Below are positions 3,282 through 45,779 of a DNA stretch of 60,534 nt, piece after piece. The translations under genes and the position numbers were made by a program. A model generated the notes under the pieces. That model saw only the letters and a program-made list of their open reading frames with translations, did no database searches and was not told the DNA's origin. The stretch is taken from positions 1 through 60,534 of the IMG/VR virus record IMGVR_UViG_3300048672_000522. One strand, given 5' to 3'. Every line of letters starts with the position of its first letter. Position 1 is the stretch's first letter. The DNA comes from a virus.

Positions 3282-3827
3282 TTAAGCTACCGTAGCGCCT
3301 TGTGATGAAGAAGACGTCCAGTAGTTGTATTGGAATGTCACAGGGAAGATTTCAATCTGGTTGTTAGCTTCCCAATCAAGTGCAATTTGACCAACATCCA
3401 TCGGCCATGCATCCTTGAAGGTGTATTCCTTGACTACTTGGTCATTTCTGTCCATTTGCAGAACTTGCATATCCACTTGATACAACAGAGGGTTCTGTGT
3501 GCCGTTTGTAGATTCTGCGTTCTGGATTGTGTCGACCCAAGCTTCAAATGCATTACGTACAGTGAAATCATTGTCGTTGTACACTTCAATGGTCCAAGGC
3601 TGGAATTCACGTTCGCCTGCAAAATGTACTGGGCGACCGCGGAAACTTACCGCCACATCGGTGATTGTAGAAGAAGGCAGTGATGCAGATTTTGCAACGA
3701 ATTGCAATTTCTGACCTGCCAGTGCTGCATTAGGAACAATAGTAGGGAACGTGATCTGAACCATGAATTGGTTAGCACGTGCTCCGCCATTGATCATTTG
3801 AGCTTTAAATTGTGAAATTTGTGCCAT
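3282..3827 (-). CDS. gp19: Tail tube protein, T4 gp19-like
   Basis: The 181-aa protein forms the inner tail tube. The start chosen is ATG 3827 (MAQISQFKAQMINGGARAN), preceded by an AAGGATAA ribosome site; a longer in-frame start exists upstream but runs through a hairpin. Family features are the early hydrophobic FMVQITFP, GQKLQFVAKSASLPS in the tube fold, and a C-terminal strand IEIFPVTFQYNYW. T4 gp19 has 163 residues; the present C-terminus is slightly longer. No TAG codon is present, in keeping with very high expression. A CATAAATA late-promoter-like box lies about 20 nt upstream. Confidence 0.96.
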   Translation of the reverse strand: MAQISQFKAQMINGGARANQFMVQITFPTIVPNAALAGQKLQFVAKSASLPSSTITDVAVSFRGRPVHFAGEREFQPWTIEVYNDNDFTVRNAFEAWVDTIQNAESTNGTQNPLLYQVDMQVLQMDRNDQVVKEYTFKDAWPMDVGQIALDWEANNQIEIFPVTFQYNYWTSSSSQGATVA

Positions 3828-3847
3828 GTTTATGTTATCCTTTTCGA

Positions 3848-3855
3848 TATTTATG
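3848..3855 (-). promoter_or_regulatory. Late-promoter-like box CATAAATA before gp19
   Basis: On the minus strand CATAAATA occurs 21 nt upstream of the gp19 ATG and just after the hairpin that ends gp18. T4 late promoters have the single element TATAAATA with variants of this kind. The same C-variant precedes the GIY-YIG gene at 49200. Confidence 0.5.
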
Positions 3856-3862
3856 ATGGAAA

Positions 3863-3876
3863 GGGACCGAAGTCCC
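3863..3876 (-). terminator. UUCG-loop hairpin after gp18
   Basis: The minus strand reads GGGAC, TTCG, GTCCC ten nucleotides after the gp18 stop codon. It resembles the gp19 terminator and probably limits read-through or stabilises the sheath mRNA. Confidence 0.65.
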
Positions 3877-3886
3877 AATCTTCATA

Positions 3887-5863
3887 TTAGGCAGTGCCGC
3901 CAATGATTTCATCAAAACTTGCGCCTGTGCGAGTAGCAACGAATGACAGTTGGATGAAGTTGATGGAACGTGATGGCTTCAGGTAAATGTCAGCAACAAA
4001 TCTGTTACCATCAATCACTTCGGCAGTGTTGTTAGTCTCATCACAAACGCACTTGAAGTCGATAATACCGCGGCGACCCTTGACATCACGCAGGAATGGC
4101 TCAACCATGTTACGGAATTGTGCACGAGTGAAACCATCGTTGAATTCAAACAGTTGGTACTTAGCAGCAGTGGCAATAGCCTTTTCCAATGTGATGAACA
4201 GACGACGCACGTTGATACGATCGAATGCGGATGGCTTAGCCAAACCGGTTTTGTCACCATACAGAACGACACCTTGACCTGGGAAAGAAACCACTGGGTT
4301 GACACCATTCAAGTACAGTGTATCGCGGCTAGCTTTGGTTGGGTTGTATGCCAGTTTGATAGCATTCTTCACCTGACCACGGTTAAAACCAGCAGGAGAG
4401 AACCATGGATCATCGGTGTAGTCGGTACGCGCACACAGACCTGCAATATCACCATTCAGTGGTACCCAACGATATGCATCATTGTAGCGGTCGTACTGGT
4501 ACTTGTAACCAGAATCGAACACAACGTAAGAGCTAGAAGGCAGAGAAGTCAGAGATGCACCATCACCATTCTTGTACTTAACAATTGCTTCATCAGCATC
4601 AGCATTAGAGCCAATGATTGGTTCACCGGTGCCAACGTTCTTAGGAGAAACGAATGCCATGCAGTCCTTGCGGACTTCAACGATATTATCGATGATAAAG
4701 CGAGCCATTTCTCTGTCTGCATCACCAGCCATAACCAAACTAACGTCATACTGTTCATCATTAGCGAACAGAGCATATGCATCAATTTTGTCAGCATTGG
4801 TAGAGGCATAATCATCTGCACCACCTGCTAGAGTAGATGTAACGGCTGCAGTCAAGCTCTTATATGCTGCACCATTGACAGCCACGGCCCCCCAGTCAGC
4901 ACCAGTACCAGAAACTGCTGTTGGGTGATCCATCCAGTAAACATATTGTGATGCATTGTTGATAGCATTCTTGATATAAGAAGAAGTACCATCAGATTTC
5001 TTAGCATTCGATGCTTTGGACAGGAAAGCATAAGATTCGATCACTGTACCTGCGGTACCAGTCCACTTGCCATCAGCGTCTACCACCACCACGTGCATTT
5101 CATCATTGCTAGCACCAACGGAAGTAGCAAAGTCGGAAGTTCCTGGCTTGATGCCGAAGACTGCTTTATAAGCCCATGCATCAAATGTAGCAGAGTCTGC
5201 CATCGACACAGTCAAGGAGTTACCCAGTGAACCTGGGTAACGAGCAGCAAATTCTCCAACAACACCTTCACCATTTGCATAAGACATCTGGTATGAATCC
5301 AGATTGTTGATCTTGATACCGCCATCTACTTTAGTAGCAGTAGCAGTAGCGTTGGCACCAGAACCAGTAGAAGCAACAGTTACAGTAGGGGCTGCAGTGT
5401 AGCCAGAACCTGGATTAGTAACAACGATACCTGTGATCACACCACCAGAAATGGTAGCAGTGCCTGTAGCTTGAATACCACCGGTGACCTGTGGAGCAGA
5501 GAATGAAACCGAAGTCTCAGAGGGAATGTAACCAGTTCCGCCGGCACCAACTGTTACAACACCGACTCTACCTGTGAGGGTAGAAACAGAGTTGAATTGA
5601 CCAGCGGTATCGGTACGAACAACGAGAGCCGAGGCGCTATAGCCAAGGAAGTTTGCCACGTTGAACCAGTTTTTGAAGTTTGAGTTGTTTGGTTTACCAA
5701 AGCGCTGAATCAAAACATTTTCGGAATCAATGCTTGTGACATCCATAACTGGACCCCATGCTGCATCGATAACCGCAGCACCAACAGAGCTAGATACTGC
5801 TGGGACGATGTTTGTCAGATCTTTTTCAGTAACAACAACTGATGGTGAAACGGAAATTGCCAT
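3887..5863 (-). CDS. gp18: Contractile tail sheath protein, T4 gp18-like
   Basis: A 658-aa sheath subunit (T4 gp18 has 659). The start is ATG 5863 (MAISVSPSVVVTEKDL), six nucleotides after AAGGAA; an upstream in-frame ATG at 5881 is less likely. The N-terminal SPSVVVTEKD and the C-terminal domain with DGFTRAQFRNMVEPFLRDVKG and a final VATRTGASFDEII are typical of sheath proteins. Residues about 98-182 look like an insertion: two glycine-tyrosine modules (GGTGYIPSETSVSF and GSGYTAAPTVTV) that recur in gp8 and in the protein at 25171. No TAG in 658 codons. A consensus TATAAATA late promoter lies 51 nt upstream. Confidence 0.96.
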   Translation of the reverse strand: MAISVSPSVVVTEKDLTNIVPAVSSSVGAAVIDAAWGPVMDVTSIDSENVLIQRFGKPNNSNFKNWFNVANFLGYSASALVVRTDTAGQFNSVSTLTGRVGVVTVGAGGTGYIPSETSVSFSAPQVTGGIQATGTATISGGVITGIVVTNPGSGYTAAPTVTVASTGSGANATATATKVDGGIKINNLDSYQMSYANGEGVVGEFAARYPGSLGNSLTVSMADSATFDAWAYKAVFGIKPGTSDFATSVGASNDEMHVVVVDADGKWTGTAGTVIESYAFLSKASNAKKSDGTSSYIKNAINNASQYVYWMDHPTAVSGTGADWGAVAVNGAAYKSLTAAVTSTLAGGADDYASTNADKIDAYALFANDEQYDVSLVMAGDADREMARFIIDNIVEVRKDCMAFVSPKNVGTGEPIIGSNADADEAIVKYKNGDGASLTSLPSSSYVVFDSGYKYQYDRYNDAYRWVPLNGDIAGLCARTDYTDDPWFSPAGFNRGQVKNAIKLAYNPTKASRDTLYLNGVNPVVSFPGQGVVLYGDKTGLAKPSAFDRINVRRLFITLEKAIATAAKYQLFEFNDGFTRAQFRNMVEPFLRDVKGRRGIIDFKCVCDETNNTAEVIDGNRFVADIYLKPSRSINFIQLSFVATRTGASFDEIIGGTA

Positions 5864-5937: not shown

Positions 5938-7275
5938 TTAGAAGTGAAACGTATCGGCTTCAGATTCTGTCCCATCAGAAAAGAATCCAGCAGGCATCAT
6001 TGCATCTTCTGTTTGTTTCTGCCTCAATTCAATAATTCTTGCTTTCGCCTACTAACTTGTCAATTCTGCCATAATACCCTGTGTAGTTAGGTAAGCGAAC
6101 AGAACAAGGGTCATAACTCTGTCATCATGTCCGTTCTCTGCTTCATATGAAGAACCTTTAAGAGCAAAGTTCTATAGTTCATACAGAATTTCTGAATCGC
6201 GGATAATCAGCTGATCATTCTCAATCAATGTCTTGAGGACAGAACAGCCTACTGATTTTGTTTTCTTTGTAGTTCTCAGGCCTGGTTTCTCTCCACCAAA
6301 TGCAGACATTTCACCTTTACTATCTGACATGATCACTTCTTCGTATTCATAATCATAGTACAGAGAAGATGCTATACTTTCACCGATATCATTCGTTTCT
6401 ACTAACACAGATGCATTATTGTATTTTCTAGCCAGATTCAATATGACACCTGGCAAAAGCAATGGGCTTACTTCATTATCTGCATACACAGCATCCACTT
6501 TATATGGGAGCTATGTGACATTAACAATAGTAAATGCAGAATAATCATTCCCAGTACCTCGAGCAGTATCCACATTCATGACATACTGATTGCCTGGCTT
6601 TGGTTCATCATATACATGAAGGGTGGGAGACACAGCTAGCGGTACTTCTACTGGTATAGCATTTATCTTTGAACCAGAAATCAATGTATTACTAGCACCC
6701 TGGAACTCACAATTCATTTCTTGTGCGAATTTAGATTCACCCAATACTGCTTTTTGGTCGTCTGCCCATTTCTGATCTCTGCCGGGTACATCCTACCAAA
6801 TAGCTTTAGTTAAGTTAAACCCGTTCAATCCCTATTCTGCATCCTTCACAAGTTTATAGAAATGGTTCATCCCGTTAGGTGTACTGATAATTGCAATCTT
6901 AGATTCTTTACCAGAAGAGATCGTCGGATATACAGAAGCAAAGAATTCATCTGCGGTATTATTTGGAACGAACGCGAACTCATCCAATAATAACATAGAG
7001 CAATTGTGACTTATTTCTGTGCCGGTAATATATTGATTGCCATTTGCTACATTAGAAAGATCATAAACCGTTTGTGTCTTTGAAATAGAATGTGGCAGCT
7101 CTCGTGCTTCTATCCATTTGCCATTTCTCATTACTCTATGATCTGGTGTACAGACAAGACCAGAATCAAGTTCTATAGTTTCTCTATCTTTTGTGATTAC
7201 AATGCCTGAGAAATCTTGCCAACCCTATGGAGTCAAGATTTCCCACTCACTAACATCAATTAGTTCTTGATTCAT
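5938..7275 (-). CDS. gp17: Large terminase, C-terminal half with C-intein
   Basis: This 445-aa product begins with a 91-aa C-terminal intein fragment (7003-7275) ending in SHN, followed by Cys as first residue of the C-extein (354 residues). The extein starts with the Walker B region (MLLLDEFAFVP), then STPNGMNHF, and the RNase-H-like nuclease with acidic positions in NVDTARG, VETNDIG and NGHDDRVMTL, matching T4 gp17. Seven TAG codons are in frame, including a tandem pair near the end (TSQQAK). The ATG at 7275 overlaps the end of the HNH gene by 20 nt and has an AGAAGAAA ribosome site. Trans-splicing with the product of 8226-8882 would give a 522-aa terminase; the half alone lacks Walker A. 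Confidence 0.93.
7003..7275 (-). other. C-terminal split-intein fragment (91 aa)
   Basis: Residues 1-91 of the C-terminal terminase half. Motifs seen: ILTPQGWQDFSGI, a block B signature CTPDHRV (TxxH) at about residues 42-48, a block F-like VYDLSNVANGNQYI and block G EISHN just before Cys+1. The His-Asn-Cys end is the standard intein C-terminal splice junction. Block B in this fragment rather than in the N-fragment marks an atypical split position. No linker or endonuclease domain remains within it. Confidence 0.92.
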
Positions 7276-8248
7276 TAAATTTCTTCTTTCTTCCATTCGG
7301 ATTACCATGTAACCACCCAGTTGGTTGTTGATCAGGGAAACACTGAACAATCTCCGCAATGTTCAGCGGGTTGTGATATATCTTTTTGCCCGCATTAGAA
7401 GCACCACCGATCTATTTGAGATATTCTTTTCTTTTCTCGCTCATCAATTTTTTCTATTCTTCAGATCTTTTTGAACCTAGATGTTTTTCGACAGACTTTC
7501 GAATCTTGTCTGGGTTTTTGTTGATTTTATCTGAGTGTTCCTTAGACTTTTTGACACCAGTTGTGTATTCTTTTCTTCTAAGAGAATCTTTTAATTGGAG
7601 ATATTCTGGTGGCCAATATAATGTACTATCCTTTTCTTTGAATTTTCTTCCTATTTGCCAGTTCTCATGTAGTATCGGAGCTATCTAATAATGCACTTTA
7701 CATATTTCTCCAGTTATAACATGATATACTGGTATCAATTCTTTGCCAGCACACTATTCAATTATAGATTTACTTCCTTTTTCTATCTATTCTTTGCTTC
7801 TTTTTGTGCCCTTTAGTCTACCTCTATTAGCTTTGCTAATCTTTTCTCTAACTTCGGGTCTTTTCTATGGATTTAATTCACCCTTAGAAGCATCTGTATT
7901 TGCTTGTCTGGCTTCAGAACAAAGAACGGCATATTCTTCTAATTGATTTTCAGTCAGTGTCTATAGTCTTTTTCTTCTTGTTTTGTTTACTTGATTAAAC
8001 TATGAAAGTGAAAAGCATATATTTCTATACTGAACTTTATCTCTATCTTTGTACTCTTTAAATGCTTTGTACAGAAACCAATGAGCTTTGAAATGATCTA
8101 GAACAGAGATTTTCTTAGTTATGTCATTTGGACCAAATATACACTTTGGATATATGTGGTGGTTCTCTCCTATTTCTACTATCTCAGAGGTCTCAATATG
8201 ATTGAAATATTTTTCTAACCATATATTATGAAAATTGAATTTGTACAT
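7256..8248 (-). CDS. HNH homing endonuclease inside fractured terminase gene
   Basis: A 330-aa free-standing endonuclease between the two terminase halves. The HNH motif is at residues 28-60: ENHHIYPKCIFG, followed by DHFKAHWFLYKAF. Two later segments (SKANRGRLKGTKRSKEQIEKG and the stretch around KKSKEHSDKINKNP and GSKRSEEQKK) resemble NUMOD3-type DNA-binding repeats of phage homing enzymes. It has eight in-frame TAG codons and is more A-rich than its neighbours, a sign of separate origin. Its start overlaps the N-terminal terminase gene by 23 nt and its end overlaps the C-terminal gene by 20 nt, in different frames. It probably mobilises the fractured terminase allele; activity is inferred. 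Confidence 0.88.
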
Positions 8249-8882
8249 TTATATCTTCCTCATCACTAGATGAATTTGCATTCTGTCTATTTAATGATGA
8301 GAATTTTTCTATTGACAATTTCTTCACTTCCCCCGTTATTTTATTTCGCACAGTTATTTCGGTGTCACCGGCGACACAAGTAAAACCCCGAATTGCACTA
8401 GATGATGTAGAAGAAGCAAGAACTCTAGATCCATTTTCCAGAACGAAAGAACCTTTATTCCATTCCACTACACCTTGCTGGATCCACTTAGGTAATAATT
8501 CATATGCAAACTGTACACGTGAAAGAATTTCTCTTGCTGTAGAAGCTTTGTTAGCTAGAATTGCGGTTGTTTTGTGATCATTAAAAAGAATATACCAGCA
8601 CACGAATGCCGCGACAACCGTAGTTTTTCCAGCCTGGCGACAGATTACAGCTGCAGTCTTCCTGTTCTGCCATAGAGAATAAACAATATCTTCTTGATAT
8701 TTGAATAATTTCATAGGCTGTACACCATGGTCTACAGTAACAATTTTTACATAATTCTGGATAAAATAGATTGGATCATATTTGCACTTGATCCATTCTC
8801 CAATATTATTTTCTGACCATTGGATTTCAACTCCTGCCGCCTTTAGCTGAGGATTACCATTGTATGAATGTGGTTTCTACAT
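8226..8882 (-). CDS. gp17: Large terminase, N-terminal half with N-intein
   Basis: A 218-aa product: 168 residues of N-extein followed by a 50-aa N-intein. The extein has the terminase ATPase start, with IQWSENNIGEWIKC, the adenine-binding FKYQEDIVYSLW, Walker A CRQAGKTT (residues 81-88) and VEWNKGSFVLENGSRV. It ends in AIRGFT, then Cys1 of the intein. In T4 gp17 the corresponding sequence runs straight into Walker B, here located in the other gene. The start ATG 8882 is followed at once by TAG (Met-Gln) and overlaps the gp15 stop as TAATG, with GGAG upstream. The reading frame stops in TAA at 8226. Confidence 0.94.
8229..8378 (-). other. N-terminal split-intein fragment (50 aa)
   Basis: Residues 169-218 of the N-terminal terminase half. 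It begins with block A, CVAGDTEITV, then GEVKKLSIEKF, and continues with a polar acidic tail rich in Ser, Asn, Asp and Glu. Cys1 directly follows AIRGFT. The fragment is about half the length of a canonical N-intein because block B lies in the partner. Confidence 0.92.
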
Positions 8883-16276: not shown

Positions 16277-17020
16277 TTATCCTATAAAGAATGAGAGTGG
16301 TGCCAGAGAATTCATAATCTGATCTTCAATTTTCTCGATATCATCCTGTGCTGCATTGTACATGGTCTGCCCATCCAGAGTTACACCACCAGGAAGAGAC
16401 ATACCCTGATATTTACTCAGGTTTTGTGCCCATTGCATCTTAGTGAGTGCAATTACATATTCCTTGAATAATCTCTCATTCCACATTTTAGGAGATGTTT
16501 CTGGATCTAGTGCAGCGTAACATTCCAACATAATCCAAGCACCTTCAGAAATCTTGACATCCCAATTCAGATTGAGATACAATTTACCTTCAAGTCGGTT
16601 AAAATCAAACTGCCTATCTGCATTCAATCTATTCTGTAGCAAAGAAATATGCTACATAACTTGTTCATAATAAATGATACTTGTTGAGGTTAGATCCCTC
16701 ATATCATTCATTCTTAATTGGTATTCAAGGTCAAATATATTTGGTTGACCATTTGTGCTATTACTAGCATTGAATACATTTGTGATTGACCAGATGTGAT
16801 CAGGGATAACAATATACTTGTCCAGTTTATTCTGAGCAGTAACCTGGTGTTTGAAGTATTCCTTCTTAATGCCATCCCAATAGTACTCGCGAAAAAATGC
16901 AATGGCTTCATCGATTCTGTCCTCCAGCTGCTCAGTAGCAACATCGATATTAATTAACGGCGCGCCAAGTGCTCTAAAGACATAAGCCTTCAATTGTTCT
17001 CTATTTGAAACGATCGCCAT
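16277..17020 (-). CDS. gp13: Neck protein, T4 gp13-like
   Basis: A 247-aa neck protein that follows the portal in the connector. Family-like segments are EQLKAYVFRALGAPLINIDV, RIDEAIAFFREYYWDG, KYIVIPDHIWSITNVF, and the later WDVKISEGAWIMLECY and WAQNLSKYQGMSLPGGV. T4 gp13 has 309 residues. One TAG is in frame (EQVMQHIS). The ATG overlaps the stop of the upstream hydrolase gene (TAATG). Its TAA at 16277 lies at the border of the duplicated element. Confidence 0.93.
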
Positions 17021-17457
17021 TACTAACCCTTCTTATCTACTGCCAATTTAAGAGCATAGTACAAAGTGCCTGGATTGAATAATTGCGCTTTTTCAATTCC
17101 CAGTAACTCAGCCATTAACTCAGAACAGAAGTATTTATTCTTGGTATTGTCAAAAGATGGGAAGATGAAACCGAAGTTGCCCAAGATATCATACCCGAGA
17201 CCTACTTTAGTAGCAAGTTTCAATCTTATCTCATTCTCCCATTGGTCTGGAAGTTCGATGTAGTCCCAATGCTCTGGATTGTATTCGATAGTTTTCAGTC
17301 GGACTCCACCATCCACGTAAGATGCAGAGCCAGATACTCCGTCAGAGAACAGGAATTCACAGTGAGAGTATGGGGTTCTAGTCCACCAATGAACTGCTCT
17401 CTAGTAGAGACCTTCCAGCCCGGGGCGAACACCTTTATAGAAAGCAGCTTTGAACAT
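17020..17457 (-). CDS. YiiX/NlpC-P60-like cysteine hydrolase
   Basis: A 145-aa protein that looks like a permuted papain-fold (YiiX-type) enzyme: an early SHCEFLF with following DGVSGSASYVDGGVR, then KNKYFCSELMAELLG. His/Cys residues in these motifs could form a catalytic centre; members cleave amide bonds in cell wall or lipid substrates. The last codons are TAG then TAA, so read-through adds a single Gln. A strong GGAGG ribosome site precedes ATG 17457. The position upstream of gp13 in a virion operon suggests a structural or host-attack enzyme. The exact substrate cannot be told. Confidence 0.72.
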
Positions 17458-43821: not shown

Positions 43822-44409
43822 ATGGCAGGACAGAACAAGAAAACAGTATTCGAGTTATCAAGAATCAACGCGGAGGAAGTTAAAAAGTCCTCCGCGTGGT
43901 TTGACGAGCAAGTAAAAAGACTGTCGTCAAAAAAGATAACACCGAACAGAGTTATGAATGAAGCAGGGATGCATCTGACAAGTCGATTAGTACCAGGAAA
44001 GATGTACTTCTACTTTTACAATCCCAAGTTTAAAGAAACTCTACCTTTCTATGACCAGTTCCCACTTGTGCTACCATTTGCAAAAACTCAGGGTGGTTTC
44101 ATTGGGCTGAACATGCATTATCTTGACTACAAGATGCGCATGGCTCTGTTTCAGAATTTACTAGAGACGGCAGGTGCGAAACATCTGACTGAGACTACAA
44201 AGATCAAATATTCATGGGCAACGGTAGCTCAAGCTTCGAGATTGGCTCCAGCGCAGGCATGTGTAAAACAATATCTCACAGAACATGTAATGTCACCATT
44301 CTGTGAAGTACCACCAGAATTTTGGCACACTGCACTGATGTTACCAGTGCAAAGATTTGTTGGTGCAAGTAAAGAAACAGTTTGGAAAGAAAGTAGGAAA
44401 TACAGATGA
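43822..44409 (+). CDS. Conserved T4-like virion or packaging protein (195 aa)
   Basis: A 195-aa protein. It contains PGKMYFYFYNPKFKETLPFY, GGFIGLNMHYLDYKMRMALF, KYSWATVAQASRLAPAQACV and FWHTALMLPVQRFVGASKET. This family recurs in T4-like phages next to gp4 and tail genes, but I cannot give it a T4 number with confidence. No TAG. Codons 16-26 contain a perfect 10-bp inverted repeat. It overlaps the next gene as ATGA. Confidence 0.8.
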   Translation: MAGQNKKTVFELSRINAEEVKKSSAWFDEQVKRLSSKKITPNRVMNEAGMHLTSRLVPGKMYFYFYNPKFKETLPFYDQFPLVLPFAKTQGGFIGLNMHYLDYKMRMALFQNLLETAGAKHLTETTKIKYSWATVAQASRLAPAQACVKQYLTEHVMSPFCEVPPEFWHTALMLPVQRFVGASKETVWKESRKYR

Positions 44410-45779
44410 GTGATGCTAAATCCAGCCTGAGCAATTTTATTGCCAGAGTAAAGAAGAATGGTCTGCTTTCTGCATCTCATTTCTATATTGTCATTCCTAA
44501 CTTTAGCCCTAATTCTTAGGACAAAGATTTGCTCATGTTCTGTGATACTGCGGATCTACCTGGCATCAATTTGATGACAACAGAAATCAGGCAATTTGGA
44601 GAATTGACTACACTCCCTCATGCACCAATGTATCAGCCAATTCAATTGTCTTTCATTTGTGATTCTACTATGGATGTTAAGTATGCTCTAGAGGATTGGT
44701 TAGATTCTGTTTTCGATCGCAATACAAGATCGTTCAATTACTATGAACAATACACAAAAGATATTGAAATCTACATAACAGACAAGTACGGAAAAGATGT
44801 TCACAGAGTAACATTATTTGAAGCATATCCTACTGCGATAGGAAATATACAACTCGATTATTCAAATGAATAGATCATAAAGATACCCGTCACAATTTCA
44901 TATAAGTGGTGGGAATAGAGTTTCTTTGATGTGAAGTACGGAGGCCAATCATCTATCTTTGATAAGAAGTTGCCGACTGCAGTCCCAGTATTTGCCGGTG
45001 ACATCAAGCCAGGAACAGCATATTATTTCAATGGACAGAAGTTCAGTGGCTTTGAGTTTATGAATGCCAATGGGACAATGTCTCCGGAGAACCAGAATAT
45101 ATTTACTGGGGTCACAGCATCTGGCAGTACTACCGGTAATACCATGTAGAATGGTGCATTCTCTAGAATCACCGGGAATGTGTCAAGCGATATCATCAAT
45201 TTTGGCAACAGTGTGCAGAACACATTTGGCAGAGCAGGGAACTCACTTGCAGCAGCAATGATGGTTGTGCCGGTGTCAACGAGCCAGGGTGCTGCATATG
45301 TATCTCAGATGGCTCTTCATGCTAAAACGATTTCCTCAGACATGTCTGGGTACGCTCAGGGTCTTGTAGAATTGGGCAAGAATGTCTCGAGCATAACCAA
45401 ACCTGCTAGCATCATCGGCCAAGCAGTCACTTCTCTGGGCGGCACACTGTCGTAGATAGATGGAACTTTATCTATGTTGGGGATCAATTCATAGCCATTC
45501 TAGAAAGTGGCCAGAGAACTATATGGCGCTGGCGGTAAAATTGGACAAGCAGCAAATCTACGAGGGCTGTCTGGCGGTCTGCAGACAGTTGGTGCTAACA
45601 TGTCTGCAACAAGTTCTATTTTCCAACAGGTACAAGGTCAGCTAGCTGGAAAAGAAGGTTTCTCTAAATCAATAGAGAATGCAATGAATTAGATGAGCAG
45701 GGCGTTCTAGAACAATGGATCGAACACAATGAATGCAGCAAATGTGCTAGCAGATAGAGCAGGAGACTCAAATGAGTAA
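44406..45779 (+). CDS. gp54: Baseplate tail tube initiator, gp54-like
   Basis: A 457-aa protein with nine TAG codons. Residues about 1-190 have a tail-tube fold pattern like gp19/gp54: SASHFYIVIPNF, LPGINLMTTEIRQFGEL, IQLSFICDSTMDVKYALEDW, and IKIPVTISYKWW. The rest is low-complexity, Ser/Gly/Asn-rich and helical. T4 gp54 has 320 residues; the other tube-fold alternative is the tail terminator gp3. Together with gp48 on the other strand it would start tube polymerisation. Confidence 0.75.

Follow-up and report, generated by a model that had tools for sequence, protein, structure and literature searches.

Fractured genes, as reportedly defined by Dassa in 2009, consist of gene halves joined to intein halves, with an endonuclease gene lying between them. 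In phage large terminase (TerL) genes, atypically split inteins are represented by AceL-TerL, GOS-TerL and the Cat consensus (PMC11766414, PDB 6dsl). Fractured genes that carry a nuclease include AceL NrdHF, with a GIY-YIG nuclease and a class 3, canonically split intein (PMC7891396), and MIJ3 PolB, with an HNH nuclease (PMC6892783). Additionally, the TerL gene of Campylobacter phage vB_CcoM-IBB_35 was described in 2012 as containing an intein and an intron enclosing a nuclease (PMC3322345). The DNA analyzed here, IMG/VR virus record IMGVR_UViG_3300048672_000522 (60,534 nucleotides, hereafter the window), contains a TerL locus that is, with high confidence, a single gene fractured by a mobile element, an atypically split class 1 intein with a homing endonuclease, and the two halves of the product are predicted to be trans-spliced. 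TerL split inteins such as AceL-TerL and GOS-TerL and nuclease-bearing fractured genes were already known, and the window is a well-supported new example. The recoded genome and the nuclease type make it notable, and probably the insertion site as well.

On the minus strand, from 8882 to 5938, a T4 gp17-type terminase is spread over three overlapping open reading frames (ORFs) of 218, 330 and 445 codons when TAG is read as sense. ORF 1 (8882-8226, minus strand, 218 residues) is an unbroken fusion of TerL residues 1-168 and a 50-residue intein N-half, CVAGDTEITVRNK...INVQIQFS, which opens with CVAGDTEITV. ORF 3 (7275-5938, minus strand, 445 residues) begins with a 91-residue intein C-half, MNQELIDVSEWEILTPQGW...ITGTEISHN, and continues from CSMLLLDEFAF into TerL residues 169-522. 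The exteins of 168 and 354 residues add up to 522 residues when joined as AIRGFT/CSMLLLDEFAF, and the predicted splice-junction peptide is SSSAIRGFTCSMLLLDEFAF. ORF 2 (8248-7256), the endonuclease gene, overlaps each of its neighbors by about 20 nucleotides, and the start ATG of the intein C-half (7275) falls within its 3' end. The layout is thus that of a fractured gene, with TerL halves, intein halves and an endonuclease gene between them. The possibility was considered that this is one gene with in-frame stops that are read through, but it was ruled out because the ORFs do not share a frame and, even when TAG is read as sense, terminate at TAA or TGA.

Alignments of the N-terminal part to the T4 gp17 structure 2o0h and of the C-terminal part to 3ezk and 3cpe each reach the junction, and the Asp and Glu positions of the nuclease are matched. 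The joined exteins contain the nuclease motifs as well as both Walker motifs (A and B) of a T4 gp17-type terminase (alignments to 2o0h, 3ezk, 3cpe and 3c6a). An earlier, sequence-only reading had placed the fractured terminase at 5938-8882, with the Walker A half and the Walker B/nuclease half on separate genes, the first ending with a block A intein start, CVAGDTEITV, the second opening with an intein C-half that ends in SHN before Cys+1, and a junction that restores 522 residues. The coordinates, the gene anatomy and the junction agree with the ORFs read out here, the alignment to gp17 proteins that it proposed as a check matches both halves up to the junction, and both intein ends carry the expected invariant residues. 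Its interpretation as a fractured gene with a split intein stands in silico. However, it overlooked the recoding of TAG, the homing endonuclease ORF and the atypical position of the split, and it overstated the rarity of the arrangement, TerL split inteins having been known for about ten years.

Table 1. Features of the fractured terminase locus, with the evidence on which each assignment is based.
Feature	Position	Strand	Basis
TerL N-extein, residues 1-168 (ATPase N part with Walker A), ending AIRGFT	8379..8882	-	Pfam Terminase_6N 1.4e-11; 2o0h E=2.2e-40
Walker A, RQAGKTT	8619..8639	-	translation; aligned with gp17 RQLGKTT
Intein N-half, 50 residues, block A CVAGDTEITV, Cys1, stop TAA 8228-8226	8229..8378	-	identity with L001; aligned with cis inteins L117/L105
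Homing endonuclease ORF, 330 residues, 8 in-frame TAG	7256..8248	-	PHROG 655 homing endonuclease, E=1.3e-10
Intein C-half, 91 residues: block B CTPDH, block F VYDL, block G ISHN	7003..7275	-	CatC, profile E=1.2e-20
TerL C-extein, residues 169-522, from Cys+1; RNase H-like nuclease; 7 in-frame TAG	5938..7002	-	Pfam Terminase_6C 6.8e-12; 3ezk E=5.4e-59
Walker B, LLLDE	6979-6993	-	within TerL C-extein

The class 1 intein signature is complete over the two chains (C1, CTxDH, V-Y-D..V and SHN/C). The position-1 nucleophile, the Cys of CVAGDTEITV, is invariant in the N-half alignment, which includes the continuous inteins L117 and L105. Across ten C-half sequences, T43, H46, V70, D72, H90, N91 and C92 are among the invariant columns, and the T-x-x-H of block B is present as CTPDH. 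The intein C-half family profile matched CatC best and then many other inteins; with the single sequence instead of the profile, the CatC match was at E=0.007. Cat itself is the consensus sequence for atypically split inteins of terminases (AceL/GOS-TerL). When the window and its close relative L001 were left out, a profile built from the other loci found the window C-half at E=5.5e-17 and matched no other ORF in the window, whereas the best of 1000 shuffles scored 0.11, so that a chance match is excluded.

A continuous intein of 128 residues at the same site (L117) gave a model with a predicted local distance difference test score (pLDDT) of 94 and matched known inteins over its whole length, the best structural match having Z 16.2 and 1.8 A over 125 residues. 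The N-halves of the window and L001 are 52% identical over 46 codons, and the ratio of nonsynonymous to synonymous polymorphism (pN/pS) between these two loci was 0.42 for the N-half and 0.37 for the C-half, values which indicate purifying selection on both intein halves. Block A and block B are on opposite sides of the split, which leaves 50 residues in the N-half and 91 in the C-half and is therefore of the atypical type.

The insertion site was found in a range of states among related loci. L001, whose TerL C-terminal part is 86% identical to that of the window, carries the two intein halves at this site, separated by TGA and TAA stops, and lacks a nuclease. At Walker A, a second intein, itself divided between two frames, interrupts its terminase again (L001:2572-5332); three chains would therefore have to be joined there, and two orthogonal trans-splicing events would be needed. 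The relative L002 has an intact, intein-free TerL that reads AIRGFT/ISMLLLDEFAF, with Ile at +1. Continuous inteins are present at the same site in L117 (128 residues) and L105 (143 residues), and in L082/L083 the intein is continuous and includes an in-frame HNH endonuclease. The continuous mini-inteins of L117 and L105/L113 resemble that of the window in site, intein family, Cys1 and SHN/C, but are unsplit and have no endonuclease. Pattern scans added further loci at this site, with mini-inteins, continuous inteins with a nuclease, split inteins with the nuclease fused behind the N-half, and split inteins with a separate nuclease ORF.

The residue at +1 follows the intein. It was Ile, Phe, Tyr or Val in 75 of the 75 intein-free alleles examined. 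In the intein-bearing alleles at exactly the site of the window it was Cys; one scan pattern demanded Cys at this position, but Cys is also present in L115-L118, which were retrieved from the N side. In many independent contigs, and likewise in complete genomes of cultured phages, the intein halves are separated by a frame change or by stops. Finding one terminase site empty, with a continuous mini-intein, continuous with a nuclease, split with a nuclease and split without one means that the origin of split inteins can be traced directly. L116, L118, L084 and L138 carry terminase inteins in three positions (at Walker A; ahead of Walker B; at QEF/C or QEY/C or just past Walker B), and the TerL gene is an intein hot spot.

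Of the known systems, AceL-TerL, GOS-TerL and Cat share with the window the phage TerL host gene, a split between block A and block B and homologous sequence. Cys1 and Cys+1 are as in AceL, and Cat is the best solved relative of the window intein in both sequence and fold. A short N-half and a long C-half are likewise common to them, the N-halves of AceL-TerL and GOS-TerL having 25 and 37 residues (50 in the window) and their C-halves 104 and 115 (91 in the window). Their insertion site is probably not that of the window (AIRGFT/CSMLLLDE, before the Walker B strand) and more likely corresponds to the QEF/C or QEY/C site of L084, L116 and L118; the window genome is also TAG-recoded. AceL NrdHF and MIJ3 PolB are likewise broken by split intein halves with a homing endonuclease gene between, but in a different host gene or with a different nuclease type. 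The TerL of Campylobacter phage IBB_35 (L138) has a split intein and a nuclease at what seems to be the same site (RGYAC/C...NHN/CNIIVVDE); its nuclease, however, is of the T5orf172 type, and it has more inteins at Walker A and past Walker B.

Similar arrangements occur in cultured phages. In a tblastn search, 95 phage records contained a match resembling the C-half; chance may account for the weakest of these. Yersinia phages phiR1-RT and TG1 (L136, L141) have a terminase half, a nuclease and a terminase half in this order, and E. coli phages kaaroe and JK32 (L137, L140) have the terminase in two overlapping genes. In all four the genes are annotated as two terminase genes or as hypothetical proteins, and the intein is unmentioned. 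Like the window, these T4-like phages have two TerL genes, atypically split intein halves and a nuclease. They differ in that the site is about 7 residues downstream (IYIDE/CAF), the nuclease has a TnsA/endonuclease I-like domain and the genetic code is standard. Since they are cultured, phiR1-RT and kaaroe being plaque-forming, the fractured terminase must work in these phages.

The following mechanism is proposed. The three overlapping ORFs would be translated separately, and the 50-residue N-half on the Walker A fragment would dock into the 91-residue C-half on the Walker B/nuclease fragment. Cys1 and Cys+1 would then transesterify and Asn91 would cyclize, leaving a native peptide bond between AIRGFT and CSMLLLDEFAF in a gp17-like motor of 522 residues. 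The terminase is very probably joined after translation, as judged from the gene structure, the homology to characterized TerL split inteins, the conserved catalytic residues, purifying selection and the cis, split and empty alleles at the site. With Walker A on one chain and Walker B/nuclease on the other, the motor is expected to be inactive before splicing, and we infer that packaging depends on splicing. The endonuclease would cut intein-free TerL alleles, which would allow the cassette to spread.

Several observations weigh against this interpretation. The intein N-half alone has no match in Pfam or NCBIfam, and the C-half alone stays under the Pfam cut-off, support coming from the profiles and the relatives. 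The C-half alone also gave a poor model (pLDDT 64.5), as may be expected because the N-half is absent; the best structural match was still CatC. Moreover, the window is a genome fragment, and a second TerL could exist elsewhere in the phage. The sequence-only reading had named an uninterrupted second terminase gene as one finding that would speak against it. No second TerL was detected in the 60.5-kb window, and the complete genomes of phiR1-RT and kaaroe contain no further terminase C-terminal part.

The possibility was considered that the endonuclease merely split TerL and that the chains form a non-covalent complex. There is precedent in a phage ribonucleotide reductase split by a homing endonuclease (Friedrich 2007, as cited in PMC3322345 and PMC10448857), and the TerL halves could in principle associate. 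However, a complete, conserved intein under purifying selection at the break would be left unexplained, as would the presence of Cys at +1 only with an intein and the cis inteins at the same site, and this alternative is considered very improbable. Repair at the level of RNA is given the same slim chance; here the endonuclease ORF would lie inside a self-splicing intron that joins the intein or TerL halves in the mRNA. Terminase introns do exist in phages, repair by a self-splicing intron having been shown for the ICP1 terminase (PMC10448857) and an intron together with an intein proposed for Campylobacter phage IBB_35 (PMC3322345). However, no Rfam group I or II intron was found in the window at the gathering score, nor in 6900-8700 in a permissive search. 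The endonuclease ORF, furthermore, overlaps both neighbors, and an ATG with a purine-rich or Shine-Dalgarno-like stretch upstream is present in both ORF 2 and ORF 3. Slightly more remote still is an origin in assembly frameshifts or decay, in which the locus would be one continuous cis intein with an in-frame endonuclease, or a dead gene. The continuous form of L082/L083 and the metagenomic origin of the window lend this some plausibility, but the frame change or stops recur in independent contigs and in complete genomes of cultured phages, and purifying selection in both halves is at odds with a pseudogene. A terminase fractured by a split intein and rejoined by trans-splicing is the reading preferred.

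The endonuclease encoded by ORF 2 has GAGGAA directly upstream of its ATG. Over residues 226-290, the protein is about 40-60% identical to other nucleases of this site, including that of L082, and several of these are GIY-YIG-headed according to Pfam. The first 110 residues resemble only L082, in which the HNH motif is clearer (HHIIPQSLGG...NLVKL...EHLLAH). Pfam returned no HNH domain for the window nuclease; the HNH assignment comes from the PHROG matches and L082, and a PDB search gave no credible match. A shared C-terminal tail combined with differing catalytic heads suggests that heads have been swapped while the target stayed fixed; the common tail, presumably DNA-binding, may recognize the terminase site. 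In L090 (3500-6100), a GIY-YIG-like nuclease gene with the same C-terminal tail adjoins an intein-free terminase and may be homing from outside the terminase gene.

In this phage, TAG is read as sense. It terminates none of the 57 genes in the window and occurs internally 172 times in 43 genes. ORF 3 breaks into pieces under table 11 and is open only with TAG as sense because of its seven in-frame TAG codons; L001 and L002, both relatives, likewise have in-frame TAG in their terminases. In 66 comparisons from three recoded records, the residues opposite TAG were Ser (31), Ala (9), Gln (9) and Glu (7), and the score over these positions was 135 for Ser vs. 40 for Gln. Glutamine (genetic code 15) was therefore rejected as fitting the residues of relatives worse than serine. 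In PHROG bit scores, summed over ten proteins, serine has only a slight advantage of about +9 bits. A 90-nucleotide tRNA on the contig of L001 (L130:8521-8610) has the anticodon CUA and a long variable arm; its sole E. coli match is a tRNA-Ser, at 73% identity. A UUA-anticodon tRNA and a tmRNA are also found on that contig (L130:1037-1112 and 4225-4614). Serine is the best fit and likely the residue inserted; it falls short of proof because of this UUA-anticodon tRNA and a mixed subset, in which TAG in the contig of L001 is opposite Ser nine times and Gln seven times in the window. The recoding leaves the intein argument unaffected.

With this locus, a TerL split intein is found in a phage whose genome is recoded. 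A TAG-to-glutamine code has been reported for phages, and a TAG-to-serine code, if true, would differ from it. A double lock on the motor can be imagined for this clade, in which the terminase would be made only when a phage tRNA-Ser(CUA) reads TAG as serine and two chains (three in L001) are then trans-spliced, recoding and split inteins jointly timing packaging, although this would have to be regarded as rather unlikely. As kaaroe grows on E. coli K-12, the dependence of packaging on protein trans-splicing becomes testable at the bench. Additionally, the new intein sequences are candidate tools for protein ligation.

Elsewhere in the window, a second tail-tube-like gene (PHROG 45) lies at 44382-45779 on the plus strand, the other, gp19-like one being at 3282-3878 on the opposite strand. 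An ORF at 17020-17457 on the minus strand, adjoining a head-tail adaptor gene, matches PHROG 1128 (enoyl-CoA hydratase/carnitine racemase-like).
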